From an uncultured Dokdonia sp. (GTDB lineage: Bacteria > Bacteroidota > Bacteroidia > Flavobacteriales > Flavobacteriaceae), in the NCBI RefSeq assembly GCF_937910895.1, contig NZ_CALEMI010000123.1, positions 1 to 39,383 on the forward strand: a DNA stretch of 39,383 nt. The letters are read 5' to 3'. This document shows, piece after piece, positions 878 to 36,324 of this stretch. Numbering within the stretch: the first letter of the stretch is position 1; the number at the start of each line of letters is the position of its first letter. The notes under the pieces were generated by a model, which searched no databases, was not told where the DNA came from, and worked only from the letters and a program-made list of their open reading frames with translations. The position numbers were made by a program, and so were the translations under genes.

Positions 878-1498
878 ATGTTAAAGCTTAAATTTCATCC
901 AGATCTCATAGAGTGTGGCACAGACGAAGCTGGTCGCGGATGCCTTGCTGGCCCTGTTACTGCCGCTGTTGTAATACTTCCCGATAATTTTAAAAATGAA
1001 GTGCTTACAGACTCCAAACAGCTCTCAGAACGCAAACGAGAAGCCTTAAAACCGATCATTGAGCAAGAAGCTATTGCTTTTGCAGTGACGCATGTAATGA
1101 TGGAAGAAATCGATCAAATTAATATTTTGAATGCTTCCATTTTAGGAATGCATCGTAGTATTGATGCCATGATACATACGCTTTCGCGAAAGCGTATACC
1201 ACAACACATCCTTGTAGACGGCAATAGATTTAAACCCTATCCTGACATTTCGCATACCTGCGTGATCAAAGGAGACGGAAAATACTTGCCTATTGCTGCC
1301 GCTTCTATTCTTGCAAAAACGGAAAGAGATCACTTTATGGAACGTATTCACGAAGAATACCCAATGTATAACTGGAAAAAAAATAAAGGATATCCCACCA
1401 AAGAACATCGGGAAGCTATCAGAAAATATGGCGTTACAAAATACCATCGTAGAAGTTTTAGATTACTCCCTGAACAATATACATTCGATTTTGAATAG
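878..1498 (+). CDS. rnhB: Ribonuclease HII
   Basis: RNase HII cleaves the RNA strand of RNA-DNA hybrids and removes ribonucleotides misincorporated in DNA; it is cytosolic and needs Mg2+ or Mn2+. The 206-residue length is normal. The family signature is visible: [13 protein letters not shown] at residues 14-26 supplies catalytic D16 and E17, VDGNRF at about 113-118 supplies D114, KGDGK supplies D133, and [12 protein letters not shown] follows. The ATG at 878 gives the correct distance to the DEAGRG motif. Residues 101-106 (TLSRKR) are encoded by a copy of the window's iterated palindrome, which has been accommodated in frame between conserved segments. The gene is divergent from the porin gene and 93 bases upstream of a lipoprotein gene. 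Confidence 0.96.
1177..1196. repeat. Iterated palindrome copy 1 (inside rnhB)
   Basis: This is the full 20-base perfect palindrome TACGCTTTCGCGAAAGCGTA. It is read in the phase that gives TLSRKR. Confidence 0.9.
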
Positions 1499-1591
1499 AT
1501 TTCTTGTTAAAAACCTAGTAGATAACTCCTGTAAGTAATCTGTGATTTCTTTTATACAAGTCCTTACATTTGAAGAAAGGGATTCAACCGT

Positions 1592-4066
1592 ATGAAACGA
1601 TTATTTTTAATGGCTATGATCTTGTGTTTTGTTGCTTGCGAACAGGAACAAAGCACCGAGACGTCAACACTCATAAAGTACATCCCTCGTAAAGCTAGTG
1701 TGATTGTAAAAACAACAAACCTGAAAGGCTTGCAATCTGCGGTTAAAAACAATACTCTTATTCAGGCGTTTGCCAAAACTCGCTATCAAGATTTTTTAAC
1801 GAGTACCACGCCTCTTTTAAAAGACCTACATTCAAAAAACGAAACGCTCATCTGTTACACTCAAATAGGCAACAACACCTACGATGTAAGTGTACTCACA
1901 AAAACAACACCTACACTTTTTACGCCAGACAGCACCAAAATTACACAAACAAAAATAGGAAGTGTTACACCAACAATCACAAAAATACAATCATCTGACG
2001 CTACTTTTTACACGCTAGAAATAGATGGAATCTTTATAACCAGCACCTCTCAATTACTTTTAGAAAACACGCTTAGAGAACAAGAAGATAATGGCATTGC
2101 TGATGATGAAAATTTTGTAACAGCATATAATGCAACAAGTGACGCTACCGCTAGTATTTTAGTAAAAGGAAGTGAAATAGATGACCTATGGTCTACATTA
2201 TATCCAAATTCAAAAAAACATTCTTTACGTAAAGCATTTTCATGGTCGCTAGGCGATTTAGACATTTCTCAAAACGATATTAAAATAAGTGGTGTAACGC
2301 TTACAAAAGATGCCACAGAGCAACACTTATTATTATTCAAAGACACCAATCCAGTCAGCAATACCATTGATCAAATTACACCTATCATAGCGCAAAGCGT
2401 TACTTCTATCTCTTATAATAATTGGAATACCTATAAAAATAACTTAGCCGATCTCCATAAAATAGATCCTTTAAAATTTGAACTAAAAGCAGAAGAGGTA
2501 TTAAGCTCTTTTGATGAAATAGGAAGTATCCAATTAGATGCGGGAACTGTAATCGCAGCGCATAGTATAGATGCTACAATTACAGAAGAAGCAATGGCAT
2601 CTCAAAAGGAAGAAGAAACCATCTATAGACAGGTTCCTATATATCGCTTTAAAGAGACCACAGCTTTTAGTAAAACATACGAATTACTCTTAGAAGTTCC
2701 TGCTATACAACTATACTGTGTGTTGGATAATTTTTATGTTTTTGCAGAGAAGCAAGAGCTTCTGGAAACCATCATTGCAAACTATCAGAATAATGCAACG
2801 TTGATTAATACCACGGTATACGAAAATACAAAATCACAACTAAGTAGCGCCTCTAGCCTACTCAGCATAACCAATACAGAAAAAATTGCGTATGAAGATC
2901 TCGTTTCTGAAGAAGAGGCAAAAGCATTCAAAAAAGTAACGATTCCTACCTATCCCTTTGCTGCATTACAACTTATTCAAGATTCAAATTTTATGCATCT
3001 TAATGTTGTAATTAATAAAAATGAAAATACTCAGAAAGATGGCGCTATCACACAAATAGCGAGCACAAAACTTGAGACCTCTATTTCGCGTGCTCCGCAA
3101 CTTGTAAAAAATCATCGTACCAAAGGTGTTGACGTACTTCTCCAAGATGAGTCAAATATCCTACATCTTATCAGTAATACGGGAAAATTATTATGGCAAA
3201 AAGAGCTAGACGGCCCTATCCTAGGAGACGTACAACAAGTAGATTTATATCGTAATGGCAGACTACAACTTGCCTTTGTCACTTCAAAAACGTGGTATGT
3301 TTTAGATCGTAATGGGAATGAGGTAAAACCTTTTTCTGTTAGTTTTAATGAGACCATCACGCAACCTTTAGCTATTTTTGATTACGAAAACAACCGTAAG
3401 TATCGTTTTATCATCACACAAGGAAAGCAAGTGCAAATGTTTGATAAGGAAGCTAAAATTGTGAAAGGTTTTGACTTTTCAAGTACAGAAAATAGGATTA
3501 TCTATCCGCCAAAGCACCTACAAATAAACAATAAAGATTATATCGTTATTGCCGAAAATGGTGGAAAGCTTCATATCTTAAGTCGTACAGGAAAATCACG
3601 TATTGACGTAAAAGAAACCATACAATTTGGAGATACTCCGATATTTAAAGAAAAAAATACCTTTGCTACTTACGATATTAATGGGGGTAAAATAACGATT
3701 ACCACCAGTGGTAAGCTTACGCGAAAACAAAGCGACAATGCTACAAACACGATTGTAAATACACTTGGAAATACAACGGCTTCACTATTAGAAAACAAGC
3801 TCATCATAAACGACAAAGTCATCGACTTAGAATACGGTTCGTATACAACCCCAGAAATATTTAAGGTAGGCAAACAAGTCTTAATCACGCTTACCAATAC
3901 AGAAACAAGTCAGGTGCTGTGCTTTAATGAAAAAGGAATTCCCCTAGACAACTTCCCCGTATATGGTATTGGTCCAGCGTATTTCGACTATTTAGAACGC
4001 GATAAGAATCTAGGATTTGTCACACAAGGAGATGCAAATAGTATTTTGATATATCAAGTGAATTAG
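1592..4066 (+). CDS. Large lipoprotein with C-terminal beta-propeller-like region
   Basis: This is an 824-residue protein with a lipoprotein signal (MKRLFLMAMILCFVAC, lipidated C16), followed by the acidic EQEQSTE. The N-terminal two thirds is not recognised; it resembles DUF3352-type proteins, without a firm assignment. From about residue 500 short repeated blocks resemble PQQ/WD-type propeller blades, for example HLISNTGKLLWQKELDGP, then TSKTWYVLDRNGNEV and LHILSRTGKS. A -7-like box TACATTTG is at 1565-1572, 19 bases before the ATG. No catalytic motif is visible. It probably sits on the outer membrane as a scaffold or binding protein; function is unknown. Confidence 0.85.
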   Translation: MKRLFLMAMILCFVACEQEQSTETSTLIKYIPRKASVIVKTTNLKGLQSAVKNNTLIQAFAKTRYQDFLTSTTPLLKDLHSKNETLICYTQIGNNTYDVSVLTKTTPTLFTPDSTKITQTKIGSVTPTITKIQSSDATFYTLEIDGIFITSTSQLLLENTLREQEDNGIADDENFVTAYNATSDATASILVKGSEIDDLWSTLYPNSKKHSLRKAFSWSLGDLDISQNDIKISGVTLTKDATEQHLLLFKDTNPVSNTIDQITPIIAQSVTSISYNNWNTYKNNLADLHKIDPLKFELKAEEVLSSFDEIGSIQLDAGTVIAAHSIDATITEEAMASQKEEETIYRQVPIYRFKETTAFSKTYELLLEVPAIQLYCVLDNFYVFAEKQELLETIIANYQNNATLINTTVYENTKSQLSSASSLLSITNTEKIAYEDLVSEEEAKAFKKVTIPTYPFAALQLIQDSNFMHLNVVINKNENTQKDGAITQIASTKLETSISRAPQLVKNHRTKGVDVLLQDESNILHLISNTGKLLWQKELDGPILGDVQQVDLYRNGRLQLAFVTSKTWYVLDRNGNEVKPFSVSFNETITQPLAIFDYENNRKYRFIITQGKQVQMFDKEAKIVKGFDFSSTENRIIYPPKHLQINNKDYIVIAENGGKLHILSRTGKSRIDVKETIQFGDTPIFKEKNTFATYDINGGKITITTSGKLTRKQSDNATNTIVNTLGNTTASLLENKLIINDKVIDLEYGSYTTPEIFKVGKQVLITLTNTETSQVLCFNEKGIPLDNFPVYGIGPAYFDYLERDKNLGFVTQGDANSILIYQVN

Positions 4067-4137
4067 AGATTTAAAAAATTAGACGTTACATACATTCTTT
4101 GTATTTTTAAAAAGAACTAATACTAAATTTAAAAATC

Positions 4138-4287
4138 ATGAGTATGAAAATCACACAAATTAAAGGTGTTATCAAATTATCAACCAACCATTTAAAATCC
4201 ATCCAAGGTGGGGAAGAAGATTATAATTTTTGCTCTGATGATCGTGTAGGCGCAAGAGCAGATTGTCATAGATTTGATGAAGGGTGA
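4138..4287 (+). CDS. Small double-glycine-leader peptide precursor
   Basis: This is a 49-codon gene translated directly from the sequence. It begins MSMKITQIKGVIKLS and continues TNHLKSIQGG (GG at residues 24-25), then a 24-residue acidic/polar core EEDYNFCSDD RVGARADCHRFDEG containing two cysteines (C32 and C43). The leader has the charged, amphipathic LS..HL..I.GG layout of Bacteroidota GG-type natural-product or bacteriocin-like precursors, which are normally cut after GG by a C39-peptidase ABC transporter. ATG at 4144 is an alternative start. No maturase or transporter gene lies nearby. The gene is isolated, with a strong hairpin about 105 bases downstream, and precedes a sensor-kinase gene on the same strand. 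The family call is inference from leader shape. Confidence 0.65.
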   Translation: MSMKITQIKGVIKLSTNHLKSIQGGEEDYNFCSDDRVGARADCHRFDEG

Positions 4288-4297
4288 TCGTTGTAAA

Positions 4298-4311
4298 TGT
4301 GTTAACACATC
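4298..4311. repeat. 14-bp perfect palindrome downstream of the peptide gene
   Basis: ATGTGTTAACACAT is self-complementary and starts 11 bases after the peptide stop codon. It could be an operator-like site or part of the transcript tail; nothing decides between these. Confidence 0.4.
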
Positions 4312-4393
4312 TGACTCTTACCTCTTAGGCTAAGACAGTTAAACAATAAACATCTAGCATAAAATTGCATCATATTCCATACGATTCAATTAT

Positions 4394-4429
4394 AAAAAGG
4401 CTATCTAAAAAATTTTAGATAGCCTTTTT
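4394..4429. terminator. Bidirectional rho-independent terminator
   Basis: A 17-base stem (4394-4410 pairs with 4413-4429) is built on GGCTATCT/AGATAGCC and flanked by A and T runs. It probably ends the peptide transcript and insulates it from the sensor-kinase gene. Confidence 0.85.
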
Positions 4430-4486
4430 ATACTTACGAATTCTTCGCTTCAAATAGACATATTTTAGAACTTTGCAACACTAAAG

Positions 4487-4503
4487 GATATGTAACACAT
4501 ATC
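4487..4503. promoter_or_regulatory. Inverted repeat upstream of the sensor-kinase gene
   Basis: This is a perfect 7-3-7 inverted repeat, GATATGT-AAC-ACATATC. It abuts the GTTACATACGTGA element at 4505 and lies 28 bases upstream of the predicted -33 TTG, a typical position for a regulator site. Confidence 0.45.
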
Positions 4504-4504
4504 G

Positions 4505-4517
4505 GTTACATACGTGA
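4505..4517 (+). promoter_or_regulatory. Shared 13-bp element, copy A
   Basis: GTTACATACGTGA is identical to 7598-7610, and its first nine bases also occur at 4085-4093 before the small peptide gene. Its position just upstream of the kinase promoter suggests autoregulation by the AraC-type domain that the kinase gene encodes. This is inference. Confidence 0.5.
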
Positions 4518-4530
4518 TACTAGTAGGCTC

Positions 4531-4558
4531 TTGGTATTTATATAATTGCGTACATTTA
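4531..4558 (+). promoter_or_regulatory. Predicted promoter of the hybrid sensor-kinase gene
   Basis: TTG (4531-4533), a 17-base spacer, then TACATTTA (4551-4558), one mismatch from the Bacteroidota -7 box TAnnTTTG. The ATG is 25 bases downstream. Confidence 0.55.
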
Positions 4559-4583
4559 TAACACTCACTAATCCTCTCTCGTT

Positions 4584-7553
4584 ATGCGAATAATAATCTC
4601 ATTGTTTATTATCATAATTTGTTCCAAGTCAGTACAAAGTCAAACTCAAAAAAAAATTGACTCATTAAATACTATTATTTCTACTACAGATAATACTAAT
4701 ACAAAACTAGAAGCATACGTCAAGATTTTAAGTATAGAATCTTCAACAAACCTAGATAATATGCTTCTAAATATTAAAAAAATTAAAGACTTGCATGAAA
4801 AAGAATCTTGCAATACATGTCTAGGTATTGCGATGTATTGGGAGGGACGTTATCATTATTACAACGGTAATTTTGCAGAGGCGATTCCCTTTTTTGAATC
4901 AGCTGTAAAAACTGCTTTTGAGGCAGGCGATGATTATACTAGTAACAAATCCCTTACGTTACTTTCTGGAATATATTTTAGCATAAATAATTATCCAAAT
5001 GCTGAGAAATACGCAAATCAACTAATCGCTAAAGGAGAAGCGCAAGATGAAATATCTGATGCACTCATTGACGGTTATTTTATGAAAGGCCTTATCAATG
5101 ATGACCAAAGTTATTACAGTCTAGCAATTACCAATTATAACAAAGCAGATTCATTAAACTCCATAAAAAAAGGGCCGAACTTTCATACATATCAAGCAAA
5201 ATTATACAATAACCTTTCTATTGTTTTTATACAAATTAAAGATTTTGAAAAAGCTGAAAAGTATCTCAAAAAAACAGAAATCAATTACAAAAAAGGCAAT
5301 AACATAGAGGGGTTAAACTCGGTAAAACAGAATTTTGGGTATCTAAAAATTGAACAAGGAAAGTATCAAGAAGCAATTGATCTTTTATCTGAAACAAACA
5401 TCTTTTACAAAGAGCTTAAAATGAAGCACAGAGAAGGGGAGTCAAACTATTTGTTAGGAAGAGCGTATTATGGATTAGATCAGTATGGGGAAGCAATACA
5501 ACATTTAGATGAATCCTTAGTCGCTTTTAAGAATGCAGGAGATACACTAAATTCAGGATTAAGCCATAAGTACATAGGAGATAGTTATTTAAAAATAAAT
5601 AATACAGAAAAGTCAAATTACCATTTTAAACAAGCCTTAGAAATTTTTAATTCTTTAAATGCTCATAGAAATCAATTAAATACTTTGAAATCCTACTCAA
5701 ATCTATTTGAAAAAACAAAAGACTACAAAAAAGCACTAGAATTGTTTAAAGAAGTAGATAGTATTAATTCTATTTTTCAAATAAAACAAAATGAAAAAAG
5801 TGTTTTTGAATTGGAAACCAAATACCAAACTAAGAAAAAGGAGCAAGAAATTGCGTTACTTCAAGCTAAAAATGAAACAGTAGAAATCCAGAAGAAAAAT
5901 CAGCGAAATCTTTTATTAGGAGGTCTTGGACTTACATCAATCGCAGGAATCTTCCTGTTTTTTGGTTTTAGAAATCGTAAAAAAATCAATAATAAGCTAC
6001 GTGAGTTAGATATGATGAAATCTAGCTTTTTTGAGAATATCTCCCATGAGTTCAGAACGCCACTATCACTCATCGCTGGTCCTGTAGAACAACAATTACA
6101 AAAACCAGACATAGACCCTTCTGAACAAAAAAATCTCACCATCGCAAAACGAAATACCAAACGCTTACTCACACTCGTCGATCAATTGTTAGATCTTTCA
6201 AAACTAGAAGCTGGTCATTTTGAGCTTAAAGTACAGCAAGGAGATTTAGGACTTTTCTTAAAATCACTCACAAGTTCTTTTGACTATCTAGCACATGAAA
6301 ATAATCAAACCTATGCTGTAAAAATCAATATACCTGAGAGCATCTATTATTTTGATGCCGATGCATTAGAAAAAATAATCACTAATCTCATTAGCAATGC
6401 ATTAAAATACAGCCCCGACGGAGAATCTATAAAAATAACAGGAGATATACAGCATCAAAAATTACACCTTACTATTAAAAATTCAGGCGCGCCACTATCG
6501 CAAGAAGCGTTGCAAACTATCTTTAACCGTTTTGCACGTATCGACGAGCAAACAGCTGGAACAGGCATAGGACTCGCGCTTTCAAAAGAATTAGTTACAT
6601 TACACAAGGGAACGATCCATGCCTACAGTGAAGCGCCGTGGACTTCTTTTGTCATCACCTTGCCAGTAACTGAAAGTGCATTTTCTGATGCTGAAAAAAT
6701 AAAAGGGATGATCGTTGAGACCGCTTTCGCGAAAGCGAAAAAAACCTCTTCACAAACAGAAATCACAGCCGAAGAACCCGATATCTTCTCAAAAGATACC
6801 AATCCTATACTGCTTATTGTAGATGACAACGCCGATCTAAGAACCTATGTGAGTTCGCTATTTGAAGACACCTACACCATATACACCGCACAAGATGGGA
6901 GCGAGGGATTTGAAATCGCATCTTCTATGGTTCCTGATTTGATCATTACAGATCTGATGATGCCAAAAGATGATGGGATTACGCTTACGCGAAATTGTAA
7001 GACTGCCGAAACCACATCACATATTCCTATGATAATGCTTACGGCAAAAGCTGGAGATGAAAACCAACTTATTGGTTTAGAAAATGGAGCCGATGCATAT
7101 ATTACAAAACCTTTTAATACTGAGATTCTTAAAACAACCGTATATAACTTATTAGAAACTCGTAAAAAACTACAGGAACGCTTTAGTCAGGAAGTGGTGT
7201 TGATTCCTAAAGATATGGCTGTAAATAGTGCAGATGAGCGTTTTCTAGAGAATCTTAAAGAAATTGTTGAGACGCAAATCATAGAATCTGATTTTACTAC
7301 AGAATCCTTTTCAAAAGCGCTTGGGATGAGCCGTATGCAATTGCATAGAAAACTAAAAGCACTCACAGGACTTTCGGCAACCGAATTTATACGAAGTCAG
7401 CGTCTTAAACTTGCTGCACAACTCCTTAAAAAATCTGACATTAATGTATCACAAGTAGGATATGCTGTTGGATTTAATAACCATTCCTATTTTACAAAAT
7501 GCTTCAAAGAGCAGTACGGAGTCTCCCCTTCTGATTACGCAAAAAAATCATAA
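4584..7553 (+). CDS. TPR hybrid sensor kinase / response regulator / AraC one-protein two-component system
   Basis: A 989-residue membrane sensor and DNA-binding regulator in one chain. A signal peptide (about 1-19, ending VQSQ) leads into a TPR array (about 70-390) that should be periplasmic. A coiled coil (about 395-440) and a transmembrane helix (about 442-462) follow. The cytoplasmic half has a HisKA box with ISHEFRTPLSL (phosphoacceptor H488), an HATPase with an N box near 600 and GTGIGLALSKE near 660, a receiver domain (about 745-860) with phosphoacceptor D790 in LIITDLMMP and K in ITKPFN, and a C-terminal AraC HTH (about 890-985). All key residues are present. The iterated palindrome encodes AFAKAK (714-719) in the linker between ATPase and receiver. 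Targets are probably itself and the operon starting at 7697. The ligand is unknown. Confidence 0.93.
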   Translation: MRIIISLFIIIICSKSVQSQTQKKIDSLNTIISTTDNTNTKLEAYVKILSIESSTNLDNMLLNIKKIKDLHEKESCNTCLGIAMYWEGRYHYYNGNFAEAIPFFESAVKTAFEAGDDYTSNKSLTLLSGIYFSINNYPNAEKYANQLIAKGEAQDEISDALIDGYFMKGLINDDQSYYSLAITNYNKADSLNSIKKGPNFHTYQAKLYNNLSIVFIQIKDFEKAEKYLKKTEINYKKGNNIEGLNSVKQNFGYLKIEQGKYQEAIDLLSETNIFYKELKMKHREGESNYLLGRAYYGLDQYGEAIQHLDESLVAFKNAGDTLNSGLSHKYIGDSYLKINNTEKSNYHFKQALEIFNSLNAHRNQLNTLKSYSNLFEKTKDYKKALELFKEVDSINSIFQIKQNEKSVFELETKYQTKKKEQEIALLQAKNETVEIQKKNQRNLLLGGLGLTSIAGIFLFFGFRNRKKINNKLRELDMMKSSFFENISHEFRTPLSLIAGPVEQQLQKPDIDPSEQKNLTIAKRNTKRLLTLVDQLLDLSKLEAGHFELKVQQGDLGLFLKSLTSSFDYLAHENNQTYAVKINIPESIYYFDADALEKIITNLISNALKYSPDGESIKITGDIQHQKLHLTIKNSGAPLSQEALQTIFNRFARIDEQTAGTGIGLALSKELVTLHKGTIHAYSEAPWTSFVITLPVTESAFSDAEKIKGMIVETAFAKAKKTSSQTEITAEEPDIFSKDTNPILLIVDDNADLRTYVSSLFEDTYTIYTAQDGSEGFEIASSMVPDLIITDLMMPKDDGITLTRNCKTAETTSHIPMIMLTAKAGDENQLIGLENGADAYITKPFNTEILKTTVYNLLETRKKLQERFSQEVVLIPKDMAVNSADERFLENLKEIVETQIIESDFTTESFSKALGMSRMQLHRKLKALTGLSATEFIRSQRLKLAAQLLKKSDINVSQVGYAVGFNNHSYFTKCFKEQYGVSPSDYAKKS
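6722..6737. repeat. Iterated palindrome copy 2 (in hybrid kinase)
   Basis: 16-base form CGCTTTCGCGAAAGCG, read as AFAKA in an inter-domain linker. Confidence 0.9.
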
Positions 7554-7592
7554 ACAACCCTTTCTCTTAGGGGCTAAAACCCCATTATTACT

Positions 7593-7630: not shown

Positions 7631-7654
7631 CTAATCCTCAGCACTCTTCTCAGA

Positions 7655-7662: not shown

Positions 7663-7696
7663 TATCAAAGTTAGTCGTCCACTCCTTTAGAGTACT

Positions 7697-10123: not shown

Positions 10124-10141
10124 CACATGAACTTCTATATT

Positions 10142-10534
10142 ATGAAAACAAAATTGTATGTAACTATTATCGTAATGATGAGTGTATTCGCTTTCGCGAA
10201 AGCGCAAACCACCACAACAAAAGAAAAGCCTAAAACTAAAAATAACCTTCCAGCAGATGGAAACGCACTAGATCAACAAGCACAAGTATTGGGTAACATC
10301 TTTGGAGATTTAGGAGGAATGAAAGAAATGCAAGGAATAGAAGGCTATATGGATCTTTTAAATAAAAGTGATGTGAGTCCAGAGCTCAAGAAAAAATTGA
10401 CTGAGCAGTATAAAGTTATTGCGCTAAGTGATGACCCAAAAAAGAAAAAAGAAATGGAGCTTAAACTATCTAAAATGTTGCAAAAAGCATTAAAAGAAAG
10501 TCAGGAAAAAGACACATTAAAAACAAAAGGATAA
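10142..10534 (+). CDS. Small secreted charged helical protein
   Basis: 130 residues. An in-frame ATG at 10127 adds five residues (MNFYI), but the ATG at 10142 places a standard signal peptide at the N-terminus (MKTKLYVTIIVMMSVFAFAKAQ), so this start is preferred. Cleavage is expected after AKA, and those residues are encoded by a palindrome copy. The mature part is Lys/Glu-rich and helical (EMQGIEGYMDLLNKSD, ELKKKLTEQYK, KKKEMELKLSKMLQKALK). It is not recognised as a known family. It ends five bases before the OmpA-type gene, so the two are probably translated together. Confidence 0.75.
   Translation: MKTKLYVTIIVMMSVFAFAKAQTTTTKEKPKTKNNLPADGNALDQQAQVLGNIFGDLGGMKEMQGIEGYMDLLNKSDVSPELKKKLTEQYKVIALSDDPKKKKEMELKLSKMLQKALKESQEKDTLKTKG
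10189..10204. repeat. Iterated palindrome copy 3 (encodes a signal-peptidase site)
   Basis: 16-base form read as AFAKA, residues 17-21 of the 10142 product, directly before Q22. Confidence 0.9.
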
Positions 10535-10539: not shown

Positions 10540-11823
10540 ATGAAAACACTACAAATTATTCTAGTATTCTGCCTTCTTTTATGTGGTACTGGAGCAAACG
10601 CACAACTCTTTAAAAAATTAGGGAAAGTAGCCGAAAAAGCTGCAGAACGCACTGTAGAAGATCGAGTGTCTCGAGAATCTTCTAAAAAAACAGATCAAGC
10701 ACTTGATAGCGTTTTTTCAAAAAAGAAGAAAAAGAAAAACAAAAAGAAACGCAAAAACAAGAATAAAAATAAAGACGAAAAAGATACCACAAGCGCTGAT
10801 GAAGCGTCTACAGTTCCAACCTATACCATAAAGCGAAGTGCTGACTTTACGCCTGGCAATATTACGGTCTTTGACGATCAATTTACCAAAGACAATCCAG
10901 GTGATTTCCCCGCACAATGGGATACCAATGGAAGTGGCGAGATTACTATGATTAACAACCAGAAATGGATGCGATTAGGTGGTAACTCTAAATACATCCC
11001 TATCCTTAAAGAAGCACTTCCAGAAAACTATACTGTAGAGTTTGATTTATTTACAGACGGGTTAGATGGCAAAACAAGTTCTGAAGCTTTTCTCACACTC
11101 CTCATTGAAGATAATACAGGATTTACACGCGCAAAAGATTGGTGTATGACAGAGATTTCTGTATGTCAATTTATAGGAAATCGAGGGGTTGTAGAAAAAG
11201 TAGCTAATGGTAAACGCCAGCTTCGTAATCAGATAGGAAAAGACTATAGAGATGCCATTAATGGGATGTCACATATTGCTATTGCTGTAAACAAAACCCG
11301 TATGCGGGTATGGTTAAATGATAATAAGCTGGTAGATGTTCCAAGGCTCGTTCCAGAAGGCGCTGATGTTTTCAAACTTGCTGTAAGAGGATTAAGAGAT
11401 CCTGATGGCGTTGATGAGCTGTATATTTCTAACATCAAAATCACAAAAGCAGGAGAAGACAATCGTAGTAAATTACTAACAGAAGGTCGCTTAACCACCA
11501 ATAATATTCTATTTGAATCGGCGAGTGCAACGCTTAAAGACAGCTCGTTTTCTATCATACGTGAGATTGCTACAGTACTAGAAGAAAATCCTGAGGTAAA
11601 CATTAAGATTATAGGACATACCGATGCCGATGGTCCGGATGATGGGAATCGTACGCTTTCGCGAAAGCGTGCCGAAGCTGTAAAGAATATGATGACGACT
11701 GCTTATGGAATTGATAGCGCAAGAATCCTAACCGACGGAATGGGAGAAAGTCAACCTATCGCACCTAATACAACAACGGATGGAAAAGCCCTAAACCGAA
11801 GGGTTGAGTTTATAAAACTTTAA
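10540..11823 (+). CDS. OmpA-family peptidoglycan-binding protein with poly-lysine segment
   Basis: 427 residues. The signal peptide ends GANA before QLF. Residues 61-78 are almost all Lys, Asn and Arg. The middle (about 95-310) contains FDDQFTKDNPGDFPAQW and long beta-rich segments resembling a laminin-G/concanavalin-like fold. The C-terminal OmpA domain (about 325-427) has the peptidoglycan-binding core IKIIGHTDADGPDDGNR, then TLSRKRAEAV and LNRRVEFIKL. TLSRKR (372-377) is encoded by a palindrome copy, a place where OmpA domains normally carry LS..RA..V, so the repeat fits the consensus. It probably anchors the outer membrane to the cell wall and belongs to the 7697-12523 gene run. Confidence 0.9.
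   Translation: MKTLQIILVFCLLLCGTGANAQLFKKLGKVAEKAAERTVEDRVSRESSKKTDQALDSVFSKKKKKKNKKKRKNKNKNKDEKDTTSADEASTVPTYTIKRSADFTPGNITVFDDQFTKDNPGDFPAQWDTNGSGEITMINNQKWMRLGGNSKYIPILKEALPENYTVEFDLFTDGLDGKTSSEAFLTLLIEDNTGFTRAKDWCMTEISVCQFIGNRGVVEKVANGKRQLRNQIGKDYRDAINGMSHIAIAVNKTRMRVWLNDNKLVDVPRLVPEGADVFKLAVRGLRDPDGVDELYISNIKITKAGEDNRSKLLTEGRLTTNNILFESASATLKDSSFSIIREIATVLEENPEVNIKIIGHTDADGPDDGNRTLSRKRAEAVKNMMTTAYGIDSARILTDGMGESQPIAPNTTTDGKALNRRVEFIKL
11652..11670. repeat. Iterated palindrome copy 4 (in the OmpA domain)
   Basis: 19 of the 20 bases of the full form, read as TLSRKR. Confidence 0.9.
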
Positions 11824-12624: not shown

Positions 12625-12640
12625 CGCTTTCGCGAAAGCG
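12625..12640. repeat. Iterated palindrome copy 5 (intergenic)
   Basis: 16-base form with flanking A and T, 34 bases before the barrel gene start. Confidence 0.9.
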
Positions 12641-19595: not shown

Positions 19596-19611
19596 CGCTT
19601 TCGCGAAAGCG
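19596..19611. repeat. Iterated palindrome copy 6 (intergenic)
   Basis: 16-base form, 11 bases after the terminator and upstream of a promoter. Confidence 0.9.
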
Positions 19612-23024: not shown

Positions 23025-24506
23025 ATGACACTTTTTGATATAATAAACTCACTCTCCACAGAAGATTATGAAAAATTCAAATCCTATCTGCGTCATAAAA
23101 ACAAACGCTCTGACACAAAAAACATAGCGCTCCTTAAACTATTAAGGCAATCGCACCTTCCTACAAACATTGATAATACACTCTATGGAAAAGCTTCTAA
23201 AAACGCATATCATGCCTTGTGTAAAAGACTCCATGACAACGTAATTGATTTTATAGCCAGCAATAGTCTAGCATCTGAAACTACCGAAGAGTTTGATGTT
23301 TTAAAACGTATTCTTACTGCTCGTATTCTATACGAACAAGAAGTATATAGCGCTGCCCAAAAGACGCTTCAAAAAGCAGTAACTATAGCAAAAACCCATG
23401 ACTTGTATAGCATGCTAGGCGAAATATATCATACCCAAATACAATACGCACACATACACCCTGAAATAAATCTTCCTGAATTGATCCAAGAATTTCACAC
23501 CAACCAAAAGCGCCACCAACATCAAGAGAATCTCAACTTAGCTTACGCATATATTAAGGATCGGATTTCAAAAACAAACAATACCGTTACAGAAGATGTC
23601 AACCAACTTCTTACGGATGCTTTTCAAAAATTCAATATCAATATTGATGAATCGCTCACCTTTAAATCGCTGTACCAATTACTTGAAATCATCAATACCG
23701 TAGCGCGATTAGAAAACAATTATTATGATGCTTTGCCCTTTTTTGAACGTGTGTATACAGAGATTACCGTTAAAAAAACGATGACCAATAAGCATCTATA
23801 TTACCATATTCACTTGCTTTATTTCATGGCAAACGCTTATTTCAGGAATCGGCAGTTTGAGCAAGCGACTGCATATCTTGATGTGATGAAAGAACGTATG
23901 CAAGAAGAGCGGGGTTCTTATGAATTCCGCTTTCGCGAAAGCGAACTCTTACTACGCACCCTCCTTCTCAATTACACCGGAAAGGCTACCGAAGCTATTG
24001 GATTATTGGAAACTCATATTGAAAAAATAACAAGAAAAAATAAAACACAAAATCCCGATCTCATCCTTGTGTTATGTATTTGTCTCACGCAACAAGAACA
24101 ACATAAACAAGCATTGAGTGTGCTTAATAAATTAAAACACAGTGTCAACTGGTATGTGACCAAAATGGGAGAAGACTGGATGATCAAACATGATCTGCTT
24201 CAATTGATCACCCATATCGAACTAGAAAACAGTGATCTTGTCGAATCCCTTTTGAAGCGTTTTAAGCGCACCTATAAACACGTTATTCGTCACGAAAACA
24301 GGTTGCAAGATTTTCTTAAAACGGTAGAAATTATTTATAAATACCCAGAAGAAGTAAAAGGAGTTCGCTTTCGCGAAAGCGTAAAAAACCTCTTTACTAC
24401 AGAGAATAAAGCCAAAGAAGATATTTTTATGTTGAGTTATTTTGCTTGGATTCTTTCAAAAACAATGCATAAACCCTTGTACGAAACCACACTGGAATTG
24501 TTATAG
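23025..24506 (+). CDS. Cytosolic helical-repeat (TPR-like) protein
   Basis: 493 residues, no signal peptide or membrane helix. The N-terminus (MTLFDIINSLSTEDYEKFKS, YLRHKNKRSDTKNIALLKLL) is a compact helical domain. From about residue 95 helix pairs of 34-40 residues recur (LYEQEVYSAAQKTLQKAVTI; YFRNRQFEQATAYLDVMKER; GKATEAIGLLETHIEKI; QKQALSVLNKLKHS-like), as in TPR solenoids. Two palindrome copies lie inside it, encoding FRFRES (from R302) and RFRESV (from R448), unusual in one gene. No partner is evident. It is probably a scaffold or regulator. Confidence 0.8.
   Translation: MTLFDIINSLSTEDYEKFKSYLRHKNKRSDTKNIALLKLLRQSHLPTNIDNTLYGKASKNAYHALCKRLHDNVIDFIASNSLASETTEEFDVLKRILTARILYEQEVYSAAQKTLQKAVTIAKTHDLYSMLGEIYHTQIQYAHIHPEINLPELIQEFHTNQKRHQHQENLNLAYAYIKDRISKTNNTVTEDVNQLLTDAFQKFNINIDESLTFKSLYQLLEIINTVARLENNYYDALPFFERVYTEITVKKTMTNKHLYYHIHLLYFMANAYFRNRQFEQATAYLDVMKERMQEERGSYEFRFRESELLLRTLLLNYTGKATEAIGLLETHIEKITRKNKTQNPDLILVLCICLTQQEQHKQALSVLNKLKHSVNWYVTKMGEDWMIKHDLLQLITHIELENSDLVESLLKRFKRTYKHVIRHENRLQDFLKTVEIIYKYPEEVKGVRFRESVKNLFTTENKAKEDIFMLSYFAWILSKTMHKPLYETTLELL
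23928..23943. repeat. Iterated palindrome copy 7 (in the 23025 gene)
   Basis: 16-base form read as RFRES. Confidence 0.9.
24366..24381. repeat. Iterated palindrome copy 8 (in the 23025 gene)
   Basis: 16-base form read as RFRES-V, 438 bases after copy 7 and in the same reading phase. Confidence 0.9.
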
Positions 24507-29195: not shown

Positions 29196-29612
29196 ATGAA
29201 ATATATTTTAACAACGATGTTTTTGTGTTTAACGATGACAATAACTGCGCAAAGAGGAGAAGATCACCAGAAAAGAGCACAGTTAAGCCCTGAGCAACAC
29301 GCTACGCTAACAACGAAAAAAATGACACTTGCTTTAGACCTAAACACACTGCAAGTAGATAAAGTGTATAAGGTACAATTAGCTCAAGCACAAAAGAGAG
29401 AAGCATTTCTTTCAGAGCGCAAAAAAGACGATCGCCAAGCGTTAACAAAAGAACAACGCTTTGAACTTGAAACGAAAAAACTAGACCATAAGATTGCTCT
29501 TCAAAAGGAAATGAAATCTATTCTCACTGCTGATCAATTTAAAAAATGGCATGAGATGAAGCACAAGAAGAATCAAAAAAGAAAAGGGAAACACCACACC
29601 CAAAGAAGATAG
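29196..29612 (+). CDS. Small basic periplasmic protein, Spy/LTxxQ-like
   Basis: 138 residues with a signal peptide (MKYILTTMFLCLTMTITAQ). The mature part is helical and very basic. Two LTxxQ-like segments are present: LSPEQHATLTTKKM near 30 and SILTADQFKKWHEMKHKKN near 108. Between them lies KVYKVQLAQAQKREAF. This layout resembles Spy/CpxP-type periplasmic chaperone-like proteins, here with a Lys/Arg/His-rich tail. The assignment is moderate. It ends at a terminator shared with hemL. Confidence 0.75.
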   Translation: MKYILTTMFLCLTMTITAQRGEDHQKRAQLSPEQHATLTTKKMTLALDLNTLQVDKVYKVQLAQAQKREAFLSERKKDDRQALTKEQRFELETKKLDHKIALQKEMKSILTADQFKKWHEMKHKKNQKRKGKHHTQRR

Positions 29613-29629
29613 ATTAGATGTTGTTTGGA

Positions 29630-29661
29630 AAAGGCAGATATTTTATAAAATATCTGCCTTT
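29630..29661. terminator. Bidirectional terminator overlapping the hemL stop
   Basis: A perfect 32-base palindrome (arm AAAGGCAGATATTTTA) with its centre on the hemL stop codon (complement of 29643-29645). It serves the convergent 29196 gene and hemL. Confidence 0.9.
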
Positions 29662-30956: not shown

Positions 30957-30959
30957 GAA

Positions 30960-31772: not shown

Positions 31773-31775
31773 CTT

Positions 31776-32687
31776 CTAAATAGCTATAGTTTGAAGCCCC
31801 TTTTTCTCTAGTTTTTTGTTGATTCCTGCAACTCCCTGAAGACCTCCTGTATGAATTGCTAAAATACGAGAATTTTGCGGGAAATACCCTTTTGAAATAA
31901 GGTCAAAAATCCCATACATCATTTTACCTGTATATATAGGATCTAATAAAATATGGTATGTTTTATTAAATTCATTTATAAAATTCACAAGCTCTTGGGT
32001 GACTTTGGCATATCCTCCAAAATGATACGCTTGTTGTAATTCCCAATGTGAGGTATTCGTCATTTTTTGTAGTTCGCTTTTTAAAAAATCACCTTTCAAC
32101 GCAGGAAATCCAATGACCTTTTGAGAAGGGCTAGAAGCATTACAAATACCTGCAATAGTACCTCCAGTACCCATGGCGCAACATATATAATCAAACGAAA
32201 GATCTTGCAGAGTTAGTATTTCTTCACATCCTTTTATAGCAAGATCATTGGTGCCTCCTTCTGGCAAAATATATGCCTCAGGATATTCTTTTTTGAGAGA
32301 TGCTAAAAAAGAAGCTTCTTCCTTTTGTTTGTATGATTCTCTTGATATAAATATAAGTTTCATCCCACAAGAAACTGCTTGCGCAAGCGTCGTATTTTCT
32401 TCAAGCGTTTTATCTAAATCCATAGCGAGTTCTTCTCCTCTAATAATTCCTATGGTATTGAAATCATATTTCATTCCGGCGACTGCTGTTGCCGCAATAT
32501 GATTGGAATAAGCACCTCCAAAAGTAAGTAGGGTTGTATAGTTATTTGCTTTCGCGAAAGCGATATTATATTTAAGCTTTCTGTATTTATTTCCTGAAAT
32601 ATAGGGATGAATCAGATCCTCTCTTTTTAACGACAATGACACGTCATAAGGAATTTGCAAGTCTTGATTCTGGGGTACTTCTATCAC
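31776..32687 (-). CDS. ACC deaminase / D-cysteine desulfhydrase family PLP enzyme
   Basis: 303 residues, fold type II PLP enzyme. The signature is at the N-terminus: LSLKREDLIHPYISGNKYRK with the PLP lysine K34 in GNKYRK, then LLTFGGAYSNHIAATAVAG (substrate loop with SNH), and CCAMGTGGTIAGI holding the phosphate. Members either open 1-aminocyclopropane-1-carboxylate or release sulfide from D-cysteine; sequence alone does not separate these, and in bacteria without ethylene metabolism the D-cysteine role is more likely. Residues 43-47 (AFAKA) are encoded by a palindrome copy. It is followed by a three-base gap to the GH73 gene. Confidence 0.9.
   Translation of the reverse strand: MIEVPQNQDLQIPYDVSLSLKREDLIHPYISGNKYRKLKYNIAFAKANNYTTLLTFGGAYSNHIAATAVAGMKYDFNTIGIIRGEELAMDLDKTLEENTTLAQAVSCGMKLIFISRESYKQKEEASFLASLKKEYPEAYILPEGGTNDLAIKGCEEILTLQDLSFDYICCAMGTGGTIAGICNASSPSQKVIGFPALKGDFLKSELQKMTNTSHWELQQAYHFGGYAKVTQELVNFINEFNKTYHILLDPIYTGKMMYGIFDLISKGYFPQNSRILAIHTGGLQGVAGINKKLEKKGLQTIAI
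32548..32561. repeat. Iterated palindrome copy 9 (in the PLP enzyme gene)
   Basis: The 14-base core GCTTTCGCGAAAGC only; the outer base pair is lost. Read on the minus strand as AFAKA. Confidence 0.9.
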
Positions 32688-32740
32688 ACTGTCAAAATTA
32701 GGAAAACGAAACCATAAAAAGACAACCTCTCATCCGATTC

Positions 32741-33067
32741 CTATAGATACTTTACAAAAGACCAAAAAGATCTTTTTTCTAAATAATCAAGGTTATTTTC
32801 ATTTTGGTAAGCTTCTCGCTCAAAAGATATGTTACTATAGGCTTTATATGAATCTCTATACTGAACCAAACGCACTCCATATTCTATGGTATACCAGATA
32901 AAAAAAGGAAGTATCAACAGCTCTACTTGTTGACGTAAATGAATACATTCATGATTTATAAAGACAACATCGTTTTTTAATGTTGCACGTTTCATAATAA
33001 TAAAAGGCCATAGCGTAAGCCCTACAAAACGTTTCCTCAACAAATATTTATTTACTATCAAAAACAT
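32741..33067 (-). CDS. Small membrane HExxH protein (putative mini-metallopeptidase)
   Basis: 108 residues. HECIH at 39-43 in VVFINHECIHLRQQVELL is a zinc HExxH motif. A hydrophobic segment (about 51-65, LILPFFIWYTIEYG) follows, and EREAYQNE (83-90) could provide the third, glutamate ligand as in gluzincins (E..A..N). This is far shorter than usual membrane proteases such as M48 or M56. It is the first gene of the minus-strand operon leading to hemL. A TTG-N18-TACTTTTG promoter ends four bases before the ATG. The family is not recognised; protease activity is inference. Confidence 0.75.
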   Translation of the reverse strand: MFLIVNKYLLRKRFVGLTLWPFIIMKRATLKNDVVFINHECIHLRQQVELLILPFFIWYTIEYGVRLVQYRDSYKAYSNISFEREAYQNENNLDYLEKRSFWSFVKYL

Positions 33068-33071
33068 ATTT

Positions 33072-33100
33072 CAAAAGTACTTTATATTCTTAGTAATCAA
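33072..33100 (-). promoter_or_regulatory. Promoter of the HExxH-to-hemL operon
   Basis: On the minus strand: TTG (33100-33098), an 18-base spacer, TACTTTTG (33079-33072), then AAAT and the ATG. The expected transcription start falls at or near the start codon, i.e. a leaderless mRNA. Confidence 0.65.
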
Positions 33101-33171
33101 AACAATGTACACACGTATTTATCCACGCATCTATTAACAACCCTATAATAGTAATCCTAGCAGAGTCTTAG

Positions 33172-33179
33172 TATATTTG
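33172..33179 (+). promoter_or_regulatory. -7 box of the DUF5522 gene
   Basis: TATATTTG, a perfect TAnnTTTG, 20 bases before the ATG at 33200; the -33 TTG is not evident. Confidence 0.5.
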
Positions 33180-33199
33180 TAGTCATCATAAAAAAAGCA

Positions 33200-33370
33200 A
33201 TGTCATTCATAAAAAAACATATTCCTATTGAAGAAGGAGATTACTATCTCACTCCCGAAGGATATAGATGTTTTACAGAGCAATATCATCGTAAACGCGG
33301 CTATTGTTGTGAAAGCGGTTGCAGGCACTGCCCGTATGGGTTTGACAAAAAAACAAACACCCAGTCTTAA
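33200..33370 (+). CDS. DUF5522 family Cys-rich small protein
   Basis: A 56-residue gene, translated directly: MSFIKKHIPIEEGDYYLTPE, GYRCFTEQYHRKRGYCCESG, CRHCPYGFDKKTNTQS. The GYCCESGCRHCPYGF motif, with Cys at 24, 36, 37, 41 and 44, is the hallmark of the DUF5522 family, whose likely metal-binding role has not been shown here. The length is typical. It is an isolated gene, divergent from the HExxH operon. Confidence 0.88.
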   Translation: MSFIKKHIPIEEGDYYLTPEGYRCFTEQYHRKRGYCCESGCRHCPYGFDKKTNTQS

Positions 33371-33592
33371 GATGGATACTACGGTATTATCATATCGCAA
33401 ATGTATATTTACATCCTACTATAGGGCAAACATGCGTTATCCCTGATTTTTGAAGTATACTTCAACAAGTATCTTTATCAATCACCCACTTGTGAATAAA
33501 CTAGTTAGGTAAGATTTAGATACTAAATTTACAATTTCAACATAAAAGGTCGGGTCATAAAACCCTCTTAAGGAATTTAAAAAAATCAACAC

Positions 33593-35575
33593 ATGACATT
33601 TCAAGAATATATACTTCAAGGAATTCCAAGCGAACTTCCACTTAAAAAAACATACAATCCTTCTGTAAATCATGCGCCTAAACGTAAAGAAATTCTCTCA
33701 GCACCAGAAAAAGAGTTAGCGCTTCGTAATGCATTACGCTATTTTGAGCCAAAACATCATGCAGCATTGCTGCCTGAGTTCGCAGAAGAATTAGACACTT
33801 ATGGACGTATTTATATGTATCGTTTTAGACCAGATTATGATATGTATGCTCGCCCCATAGAAGCATATCCTGCACAATCTAAACAAGCTGCTGCGATCAT
33901 GCTTATGATTCAGAATAATCTGGATCCTGCGGTAGCACAACATCCGCACGAATTGATCACTTATGGTGGGAATGGAGGCGTCTTTTCTAACTGGGCACAA
34001 TACCTGCTTACCATGCAGTATTTAGCCCAAATGAATGACAACCAAACCTTAGCAGTGTATTCTGGACATCCTATGGGGTTATTTCCTTCTCATAAAGATG
34101 CTCCACGTGTGGTCGTGACTAACGGAATGATGATTCCTAATTATTCACAACCAGATGATTGGGAAAAATTTAATGCCCTTGGTGTTACCCAATATGGGCA
34201 GATGACCGCAGGAAGCTATATGTATATTGGTCCGCAAGGGATTGTGCACGGGACAACGATTACCGTTCTGAATGCATTTAGAAAAATAAAAAAACCGCTA
34301 GAAGGTGGTTTATTTGTGACCTCAGGTTTAGGAGGCATGAGTGGCGCACAACCCAAAGCAGGGAATATCTCTGGATGCATTACGGTCTGTGCCGAGGTAA
34401 ATCCAAAAGCAGTACATACGAGACACTCACAAGGTTGGGTAGATGAAGTGATCACAGATACAACAGCACTTGTCAACCGTGTTACCAAAGCAAAAGCTGC
34501 AAAAGAAGTCGTATCTATCGCGTATCAAGGAAACATTGTGGATGTATGGGAAGCCTTTGACAAATATCAAATTCATATTGATATTGGGAGTGATCAAACT
34601 TCACTTCACAATCCGTGGGCTGGGGGGTATTATCCATTAGGGATGAGTTTTGAAGAGGCAAACGTTTGTATGTCTGAAGACCCAGTACGCTTTCGCGAAA
34701 GCGTAAAAAGCACCCTTGTCCGTCATGCAGCAGCCATCAATGCACATACCGTAAAAGGCACTTACTTTTTTGATTATGGAAATGCCTTTTTGTTAGAAAG
34801 TTCGAGAGCTGGCGCTGATATCTTAGCCGAAAATGGGATCGATTTTAAATACCCTAGCTACGTACAGGATATTATGGGACCTATGTGTTTTGATTATGGC
34901 TTTGGTCCTTTTAGATGGGTATGCGCTTCTGGAAAACCTGAAGATTTAGCAAAAACTGATGAGATTGCGTGTAAAGTCTTGGAAGAGCTTGCTGAAGATG
35001 CTCCACCAGAAATCCAACAACAAATGCAGGATAACATTCAGTGGATTAAAGGGGCTCAAGAAAATAAACTTGTGGTTGGCTCCCAAGCTAGAATCTTGTA
35101 TGCAGATGCAGAAGGACGTATGAAAATTGCACAAGCCTTTAATGATGCGATCGCTCATGGCGAAATAGGATACATCATCTTAGGTCGCGACCACCATGAT
35201 GTATCGGGAACAGATTCTCCATATCGAGAAACAAGTAATATTTATGATGGAAGCCGTTTTACGGCAGATATGGCGATACAAAACGTGATAGGAGATAGTT
35301 TTAGAGGAGCTACTTGGGTAAGCATTCATAACGGCGGAGGCGTAGGATGGGGAGAGGTAATAAACGGCGGTTTTGGTATGGTTCTTGATGGTAGTAATGA
35401 TGCCGAAAGACGCTTGCAATCCATGCTTTTCTGGGATGTAAATAATGGTATTGCACGTCGAAGTTGGGCTCGTAATGAAGGTGCTGTTTTTGCTATAAAA
35501 AGAGCGATGGAATCACAACCTGACTTGAAAGTAACTTTGCCAAATATTGTAGAAGACAGTTTATTTAGACAATAA
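33593..35575 (+). CDS. hutU: Urocanate hydratase (long form)
   Basis: Urocanase converts urocanate to 4-imidazolone-5-propionate in histidine breakdown using tightly bound NAD+. 660 residues fits the long urocanase subgroup rather than the about 557-residue proteobacterial form. Recognisable segments are YSGHPMGLFPSHKDAPR, the NAD-loop GGLFVTSGLGGMSGAQPKAG, IDIGSDQTSLHNPWAGGYYP, FDYGFGPFRWVCASG (active-site-region C444) and GRDHHDVSGTDSPYRETSNI. Residues 366-370 (RFRES) are encoded by a palindrome copy. No hutH, hutI or hutG is in this window, so the pathway genes are elsewhere. It is followed by a DUF4136 gene 18 bases on. Confidence 0.96.
   Translation: MTFQEYILQGIPSELPLKKTYNPSVNHAPKRKEILSAPEKELALRNALRYFEPKHHAALLPEFAEELDTYGRIYMYRFRPDYDMYARPIEAYPAQSKQAAAIMLMIQNNLDPAVAQHPHELITYGGNGGVFSNWAQYLLTMQYLAQMNDNQTLAVYSGHPMGLFPSHKDAPRVVVTNGMMIPNYSQPDDWEKFNALGVTQYGQMTAGSYMYIGPQGIVHGTTITVLNAFRKIKKPLEGGLFVTSGLGGMSGAQPKAGNISGCITVCAEVNPKAVHTRHSQGWVDEVITDTTALVNRVTKAKAAKEVVSIAYQGNIVDVWEAFDKYQIHIDIGSDQTSLHNPWAGGYYPLGMSFEEANVCMSEDPVRFRESVKSTLVRHAAAINAHTVKGTYFFDYGNAFLLESSRAGADILAENGIDFKYPSYVQDIMGPMCFDYGFGPFRWVCASGKPEDLAKTDEIACKVLEELAEDAPPEIQQQMQDNIQWIKGAQENKLVVGSQARILYADAEGRMKIAQAFNDAIAHGEIGYIILGRDHHDVSGTDSPYRETSNIYDGSRFTADMAIQNVIGDSFRGATWVSIHNGGGVGWGEVINGGFGMVLDGSNDAERRLQSMLFWDVNNGIARRSWARNEGAVFAIKRAMESQPDLKVTLPNIVEDSLFRQ
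34686..34705. repeat. Iterated palindrome copy 10 (in hutU)
   Basis: Full 20-base perfect form, read as VRFRESV, with bases flanking it similar to copy 8. Confidence 0.9.
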
Positions 35576-35593
35576 CACTTAAAAAAAGAATCT

Positions 35594-36172
35594 ATGAAAG
35601 CATTACGATTACTACCATTACTAGCTATTATGCTACTGATCTCTTCTTGTAGCACTGTCCGAGTGACATCTGATTATGATCAATCTGTTAACTTTAACGA
35701 ATATAAAACGTATGCGTTTTATAAGCCTGGTATAGACAAAGCAGAAATTTCTGACCTTGATAAAAGACGTGTTCTTAAAGCCATCGAAAAAGAAATGGAA
35801 ACCAAAGGATTTGTAAAATCCGAAAACCCTGAAGTACTTATCAGTATTTTTGCAAAAGCAAATAAACGTGTTGATGTATATCAAAACAACTTTGGCTTTG
35901 GAGGCTGGGGCTGGGGAGGTTTTGGACCTTGGGGCGGTGGCGCCTTTTATGGCAATAACATCTCTGAACGTACAGAAGGAATCCTCTACATTGATTTACT
36001 AGATGTAGATAAAAAACAACTTGTTTGGCAAGGGAAAGGAACTGCTACTTTAATAGAAAACGATATAAACAAACGAGAAGCGCGTATACAAGAAATTGTA
36101 AAAGAAATCATGCAAGTGTATCCTCCTGCTATCGCAAGTTCAAATAGCGAACTCACACGTGAGAAAATATAG
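35594..36172 (+). CDS. DUF4136 lipoprotein
   Basis: 192 residues. The signal ends LISSC (C19). The family opening STVRVTSDYDQSVNFNEYKT is followed by YAFYKPGIDKAEISDLDKRR and a central Gly/Trp-rich loop (FGFGGWGWGGFGPWGGG, about 97-115), then ILYIDLLDVDKKQLVWQGKG and a C-terminal helix. This layout is typical of DUF4136 periplasmic-facing lipoproteins of unknown function. It lies 18 bases after hutU and probably shares its transcript. Confidence 0.9.
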   Translation: MKALRLLPLLAIMLLISSCSTVRVTSDYDQSVNFNEYKTYAFYKPGIDKAEISDLDKRRVLKAIEKEMETKGFVKSENPEVLISIFAKANKRVDVYQNNFGFGGWGWGGFGPWGGGAFYGNNISERTEGILYIDLLDVDKKQLVWQGKGTATLIENDINKREARIQEIVKEIMQVYPPAIASSNSELTREKI

Positions 36173-36227
36173 TCTTCTTCTGAAAAGAAAAGACATGTAA
36201 ATGACACAATCTAAGAATTGCGTCCCG

Positions 36228-36257
36228 AAAAACACCGAACATTCATTCGGTGTTTTT
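36228..36257 (+). terminator. Terminator after the DUF4136 gene
   Basis: AAAAACACCGAA pairs with TTCGGTGTTTTT around CATTCA, ending in a T7 tract. Confidence 0.9.
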
Positions 36258-36308
36258 TTGTTTCTAAAATACTCCATAGCGACTACTTAATGGGATTGAG
36301 AATGGGTG

Positions 36309-36324
36309 CGCTTTCGCGAAAGCG
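36309..36324. repeat. Iterated palindrome copy 11 (intergenic)
   Basis: 16-base form between a terminator and the LRR gene. Confidence 0.9.

Follow-up and report, generated by a model that had tools for sequence, protein, structure and literature searches.

An exact, evenly spaced palindrome iterated through the genomes of Dokdonia and two further Flavobacteriaceae genera as a possible self-DNA signal

A stretch of 39,383 nucleotides from an uncultured Dokdonia sp. (hereafter the window) contains 11 copies of a perfect palindrome, the 14-mer GCTTTCGCGAAAGC, ten of which extend to the 16-base form CGCTTTCGCGAAAGCG. The 16-base form, bordered by flanks that are poor in G and rich in A and C in the outward direction, is a genome-wide DNA signal present at a similar density in two other Flavobacteriaceae lineages, and in Dokdonia selection or drive preserves it, as a DNA site, copy by copy (conservation of sites was measured in Dokdonia only, the other two genera being known for their similar density). 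By analogy with known systems, the palindrome is possibly, though at somewhat less than an even chance, an uptake or self-recognition signal of natural transformation.

The origin of the copies by chance or from base composition is ruled out. None of 100 dinucleotide shuffles of the window yielded the 14-mer, the window's own genome (4.81 Mb in 169 contigs) carries 878 copies while its reversed control has none, and 60 control palindromes of the same composition had no perfect copy in the DNA searched (see below). In a survey of 118 genomes, the window's own included, all 17 congeners searched have 369–905 copies each, one genome of another genus (G027) has 578, and the remaining 99 have 0–17. 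A family survey with the 12-base core as a query comprised 395 Flavobacteriaceae genomes of completeness at least 85 from 219 genera, again including the window's own; 445–922 copies were found in six genomes belonging to three genera, Dokdonia (g1) and two further ones (g11 and g207), and at most 21 in each of the other 389. The density in the carriers is about one copy per 4–8 kb. No copy was found in 80 named loci from other genera, and the eight one-mismatch hits in named non-carriers all represent one conserved urocanase stretch in Flavobacterium and not independent sites. Decayed ancestral sites were rejected for the close non-carrier G222, in 80 kb of which there is no copy with up to two mismatches. 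The initial annotation, made from the window alone, had stated that counts within expectation, or a confinement of the copies to the window, would defeat its proposal, and neither was observed. A search of the open-licence literature gave no report of this motif, and the paper on highly iterated palindromes (HIP) mentions neither Bacteroidetes nor this core (PMC4390886).

The signal is remarkable for its exactness. In 540 kb of the Dokdonia genome G016 there are 177 perfect, eight one-mismatch and 18 two-mismatch copies, while the control palindromes reach at most 0, 1 and 12, respectively. Counted on both strands, the pooled sample has 557 occurrences of the half-site CGAAAGC, of which 502 lie inside perfect palindromes; the remaining 55, versus 35 by Markov expectation (1.6-fold), include 27 in which the other half matches at five or six of the seven bases. 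If the half-site is favoured on its own, it is so only slightly, and near-matches often have one half intact and the outer bases of the other loosened. From the large surplus of whole palindromes over half-sites we infer a reader protein that is dimeric and recognises the palindrome in double-stranded DNA. In g207 (G264; loci L187–L190 and L242–L261) the signal is looser: 480 kb contain 23 one-mismatch versus 63 perfect copies, 16-base extensions are less frequent and the flank bias is weaker, as if the signal were younger, weaker or decaying.

The flanks have a composition of their own. Read outward 5' to 3' on either strand, G makes up 3–4% of positions +3 to +7 and is back at the background level near +28, the G-poor, A/C-rich flank being about 25 bases long, with CC, AC and AA enriched and GG and TG depleted at genic and intergenic copies alike. 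The same G-poor flank recurs in g11 and, weakly, in g207. An extended hairpin is ruled out, as the left and right flanks vary independently beyond position 2 and show no covariation there. Moreover, a 3-base periodicity phased on the palindrome was strong in the 174 half-sites of the first intergenic sample (0 of 2000 rotations as strong, for A and for T alike) and in 70 half-sites of intergenic g11 copies (p 0.002); in 16 half-sites of g207 it appeared for A (p 0.004) and not for T (p 0.59). In the second intergenic sample from Dokdonia it was not significant (78 half-sites; p 0.087), nor was it in its gene-clear subset (38 half-sites; p 0.44), and the periodicity is treated as a lead only.

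It is owing to this flank asymmetry that a two-way recombination signal stays alive as an alternative, although an unlikely one. A helicase-nuclease or recombination protein arriving from either side would stop degrading at the palindrome and load RecA on the 3' strand, the GT-rich, C-poor stretch 5' of the palindrome on that strand favouring RecA. Chi sites of RecBCD and AddAB resemble the palindrome in density and in having a GT-rich strand, and RecA has a three-base step and a preference for GT. Over about 25 bases 5' of the palindrome each strand is indeed rich in G and T and poor in C, at genic and intergenic copies and with independent sides, the periodicity in the first intergenic sample and in g11 is what a RecA-type filament would give, and a PF12705 protein of AddB size is found in all 28 genomes. 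Nevertheless, non-carriers have that protein as well as carriers, and in its tree the three carrier genera fall in three places (three changes at the fewest, or one gain and two losses). The periodicity was not significant in the second Dokdonia set. The Chi sites known so far are short, act in one direction and are recognised on a single strand, whereas the Dokdonia motif is about twice as long and palindromic, with most half-sites inside palindromes and the lone half-site weakly over expectation.

The window copies, each with its fate in the congeners compared, are as follows; a copy is called kept if a perfect 14-mer lies at most 20 bases from the aligned position.

1180–1193, copy 1, in the RNase HII gene (878–1498, + strand); perfect palindrome of 22 bases (1176–1197); kept in G011, G015 and G016, missing from G014 in a gapped alignment.
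6723–6736, copy 2, in a TPR/hybrid sensor kinase gene (4584–7553, + strand); 16 bases; kept in G011, missing from G015 and G014, both alignments being gapped.
10190–10203, copy 3, close to the 5' end of an open reading frame (ORF; 10127–10534, + strand) for which a Pfam search gave no match; 16 bases; kept in G011 and G015 despite differing flanks.
11655–11668, copy 4, in an OmpA-family gene (10540–11823, + strand); 18 bases; kept in G011, G015 and G014.
12626–12639, copy 5, intergenic; 18 bases; unalignable in the relatives compared.
19597–19610, copy 6, intergenic; 18 bases; unalignable in the relatives compared.
23929–23942, copy 7, in a TPR-domain ORF (23025–24506, + strand); 16 bases; kept in G011 and G015.
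24367–24380, copy 8, in the same TPR-domain ORF as copy 7 (23025–24506, + strand); 16 bases; kept in G011, G015 and G016.
32548–32561, copy 9, in a PALP-family enzyme gene (31776–32687, − strand); 14 bases; kept in G011 and G015.
34689–34702, copy 10, in the urocanase gene (33593–35575, + strand); 20 bases (34686–34705); kept in G011 and G016, with one mismatch in G003.
36310–36323, copy 11, intergenic; 16 bases; unalignable in the relatives compared.

Five of the perfect palindromes thus measure 16 bases and three 18, and single ones have 14, 20 (34689) and 22 (1180) bases. TCGCGA occurs 12 times in the window, in all cases but one inside the palindrome. All 11 copies reported in the initial annotation are present, and its sites are right, although the positions given are off by 0–3 bases from the starts of the 14-mers, mostly because the start of the longer palindrome was given. 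Its count of ten copies reaching 16 bases and two reaching 20 agrees with ours (ten of the 11 at 16 and two, of 20 and 22 bases, at 20 or more), as does its division into eight copies within and three between ORFs, judged by the ORF list.

From the window, eight of eight aligned copies are kept in G011 (three unaligned), six of seven in G015 (four unaligned), two of two in G016 and one of two in G003 (nine unaligned in each), and one of three in G014 (eight unaligned). Between larger samples, all 43 aligned copies of G003 are kept in G016 (one unaligned), and in the opposite direction 43 of 46 (two unaligned), each of the three exceptions having one mismatch in an ungapped alignment. The share of random 14-base windows that are identical is 60.5% for G003 and G016, 7.2% for the window and G011, and 6.7% for the window and G015. 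The flanks of copies in G003 and G016 accumulate substitutions at about the genome-average rate, which rules out flank hypermutation. Where a site is absent in an ungapped alignment, 1 to 7 mismatches are found, that is, loss or gain proceeds by substitution; several other absences sit in gapped alignments and are uninformative either way. A mobile or repetitive extragenic palindromic (REP)-like repeat copied by a transposase, an idea that high copy number and palindromic form might invite, is therefore very improbable: insertions with conserved flanks were not found, the flanks sharing nothing beyond a graded composition bias, the informative absences are substitutions, and the copies occupy all codon phases. 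The use of all three phases (AFAK, FRES and LSRK), as claimed for the window, was seen in a larger sample including it.

As regards placement, 828 kb hold 251 copies, and 106 of these are intergenic, although only about 11% of this DNA lies between called ORFs and about 89% within them (an ORF being called simply on its length, and near-identical stretches of G003 and G016 being counted twice). The 100 intergenic copies with both neighbours lie in 67 tandem, 19 convergent and 14 divergent gaps, numbers near the base shares of such gaps, with no marked preference for convergent or divergent ones. The spacing is more even than random, with a coefficient of variation (CV) of 0.67 versus 0.96 and with 7.6% of gaps shorter than 1 kb versus 28%, neither value being reached in 5000 simulations, and separate stretches of G016, G003, G012, G006 and G011 each give p <0.05 on the CV. 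Two long copy-free gaps in G006 coincide with a stretch of 28–30% GC and with a 3368-codon gene. The earlier statement that there is no even spacing holds for the window taken alone (CV 0.72, 25% of simulations as even) and not for the larger samples, which are significantly even.

The palindrome is also carried by temperate phages and by copper-resistance islands. The 16-mer is contained in 41 stretches of viral contigs; eight records with a GC content of at least 48% were left out, eleven stretches lay in records already taken, and the 22 records examined hold 67 copies in 487 kb, a density that is an upper bound, as the records were chosen for having a copy and some are the same phage. Phage structural genes adjoin the copies, and a lysogeny-type gene is present in all six records examined for lifestyle, in the form of a Mu-like transposase with an AAA transposition protein and a CI-like repressor, CI-like repressors alone, tyrosine integrases or a serine recombinase. 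Among genomes with no genome-wide signal, G160 has all its 16 copies within 78 kb and G353 has 18 of 19 in two stretches, the same spacings of 933 and 2446 bases suggesting that they carry the same module; the nine copies of G222 are mostly scattered. Regions of six other genomes (L174–L185, from G162, G170, G182, G286, G398 and G029), picked for their clustered copies, share common DNA at 64–97% identity, and Pfam matches in one of them comprise copper/heavy-metal efflux, a multicopper oxidase and P-type ATPases. The islands have a donor-like copy density and a recurrent pair 933 bases apart in hosts otherwise devoid of the signal; they look like imports from carriers, whose lineage the palindrome may mark.

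Even spacing and the presence of sites in prophage-type elements and islands would also be expected of a chromosome-organising or nucleoid protein, a dimer that structures any resident DNA from hundreds of evenly spaced sites, and the preference for whole palindromes and the similar density along G016 (15 to 45 copies per 100 kb in 21 stretches, which are unmapped relative to the origin) are in its favour. Sites of the ParB family, parS and those bound by Noc, are 16-base palindromes with TTTC and GAAA half-sites, as in the Dokdonia motif, the spacing of the half-sites differing by one base pair per side. However, the Dokdonia palindrome is present in hundreds of copies at a similar density in all stretches sampled, and carriers have no dedicated extra ParB: a single match was found in 11 of 12 carriers and two in G000, the second being of a type also found in non-carriers, five of 20 of which have two or three and the rest one. 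Moreover, close relatives are without the signal outside islands, and strand-asymmetric flanks are unexpected for a simple structural site. Such a protein is regarded as an unlikely reader. Of the readers suggested at first, a DNA-binding or recombination protein fits the whole-palindrome preference and the flank signature; a role in segregation is unsupported, in view of the even density over the 21 stretches of one chromosome and the single ParB match in most carriers, and methylation as the cause is likewise unsupported for the two methyltransferase families tested.

The initial annotation also drew a likeness to HIP1 of cyanobacteria, and the likeness in concept is real. HIP1 has been described as a short perfect palindrome of high copy number that spreads by substitution, is restricted to lineages and is suggested to be polyphyletic (PMC4390886). 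The Dokdonia palindrome is likewise short, perfect, lineage-restricted and iterated in genes and between them, with a genome-wide excess (878 vs. 0) and gain or loss by substitution. It differs from HIP1, which has 8 bases, in its length of 14–16 bases and in having few one-mismatch copies, even spacing and graded flanks. An orphan DNA methyltransferase methylating the TCGCGA or CGCG core would account for a palindromic, highly iterated and substitution-spread sequence, as for HIP1 (PMC4390886), but neither of two methyltransferase families is common to the carriers. The C5 methylase family PF00145 has matches in just six of 12 carriers and in nine of 20 non-carriers, and PF01555 exceeds the cut-off in two of 12 carriers (0 of the 8 Dokdonia among them) and two of 20 non-carriers; a methylase would, moreover, leave the 14–16-base core and the flank bias unexplained. 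The chance that methylation is the cause is considered slight.

Of the known systems compared, uptake sequences are the closest because of exactness, even spacing, non-coding excess, lack of orientation, origin by substitution and spread to resident mobile DNA. Uptake sequences have been described as having even spacing, showing no orientation bias and being over-represented in non-coding DNA (PMC1939737), and AT-rich flanks contribute to them (PMC7811141). The Dokdonia palindrome, orientation-free by its very symmetry, shares with the DNA uptake sequences (DUS) of Neisseria and the uptake signal sequences (USS) of Pasteurellaceae an exact repeated motif in hundreds of evenly spaced copies, the non-coding excess and the contribution of flanks. 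It differs from them in being palindromic, in belonging to Bacteroidota and in being known here from sequence alone; furthermore, seven of 12 carriers have no type IV pilus ATPase over the cut-off. As a signal of the uptake kind, which is the best reading, it would be unusual in the first two of these respects. To our knowledge, no palindromic uptake sequence or recombination/nuclease-stop signal has been described, and few groups of bacteria are known to maintain long, exact motifs site by site at even spacing.

If the palindrome serves uptake, DNA bearing it would be preferentially taken up or recombined, copies would arise by point mutation, be driven to fixation and be held exact, and DNA long resident in carrier chromosomes, such as prophages and islands, would acquire copies. 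At one copy per 4–8 kb, most long fragments would bear the mark, and the even spacing would be accounted for. The reader would differ from ComP of Neisseria, as the known essential transformation genes of Riemerella include no type IV pilus gene, none being among those listed in the excerpted text of PMC8459023. In R. columbina, transformation favours own DNA (PMC7965970). Our estimate for the uptake reading is kept below evens because neither an uptake experiment in Dokdonia nor the reader protein was found.

Several points weigh against this reading. The authors of the R. columbina study, considering words of up to 10 bases, found no clear uptake sequence in that species (PMC7965970), and the known uptake sequences are not palindromes (PMC1939737). 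A search of the open-licence literature on Dokdonia competence and ComEC gave no paper, so that competence of Dokdonia is unsupported, and uptake does not readily explain why the flanks are strand-asymmetric. Diverged phages (65–70% identity) retain only part of their sites, L166 and L168 sharing two of three aligned and L166 and L167 one of three, with one of one aligned kept between L122 and L116. Finally, the uptake-type genes tested fail to track the trait. The type IV pilus ATPase PF00437 is over the cut-off in five of 12 carriers and three of 20 non-carriers, and neither the pilus, ParB, the two methylase families nor AddB follows the carriers. DUF5689, a domain of one essential Riemerella transformation protein (PMC8459023), is encoded in all 28 genomes, 10 of them carriers, and it and the adjoining barrel gene are present in non-carriers too; the equation of both with the Riemerella genes rests on domain and adjacency. 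The DUF5689 tree mixes carriers and non-carriers, the allele of the Dokdonia genome G012 grouping with G264 (support 93/92), and with carriers not united the protein was rejected as the reader. The barrel tree places all 10 carriers in a 15-row group together with five non-carriers (both trees were made from ORFs of loci of limited length, and the AddB and barrel proteins are truncated).

It is worth mentioning that the palindrome lies 18–100 bases 3' of the DUF5689 gene in six of the 10 carriers (L301, L302, L306, L308, L316 and L317), an arrangement noticed after the fact in genomes several of which are close relatives; in G012 (L310) an imperfect palindrome follows the gene. The DUF5689 tree (L307, L308, L310, L316 and L317) looks mosaic, unlike that of the neighbouring barrel gene, and suggests allele exchange, as far as these sequences go.

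A broader proposal, made with some diffidence as a possibility clearly below evens, is that of a transferable self-DNA code of Bacteroidota. Its reader, shared by three genera or more through transfer or retention, would recognise the perfect 16-base palindrome with strand-asymmetric, perhaps triplet-phased flanks; the same evenly spaced signal of hundreds of copies would be imposed on chromosomes, prophages and islands via pilus-independent uptake or a two-way recombination/nuclease-stop mechanism. Uptake sequences showed how cells recognise their own DNA, and the Dokdonia motif would make it testable whether transformation in Flavobacteriaceae tells self from foreign DNA by sequence. It sits in culturable, sequenced marine bacteria, in which methylation, binding and uptake are directly testable, and a public PacBio run exists for Dokdonia sp. 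Dokd-P16 (SRR33419195; PMC13151707). The motif may also work as a fingerprint of the donor lineage, as in the copper-resistance islands, which keep a donor-like density in signal-free genera.

Two minor observations concern other repeats. In the 80 named loci, searched for long palindromes of a similar kind, no 12-base palindrome reached the threshold of three copies, except for an AT run and N runs; the 8-base palindrome TTCCGGAA is present at about 15–35 times the simple composition expectation in several loci of Flavobacterium, Chryseobacterium and related bacteria (L010, L013, L045, L047, L049 and L083). In the window, a short stretch resembling an inverted repeat at 4387–4435 has matches of 86–90% in four congeners, on both strands in one, and is possibly another repeated element or a terminator.

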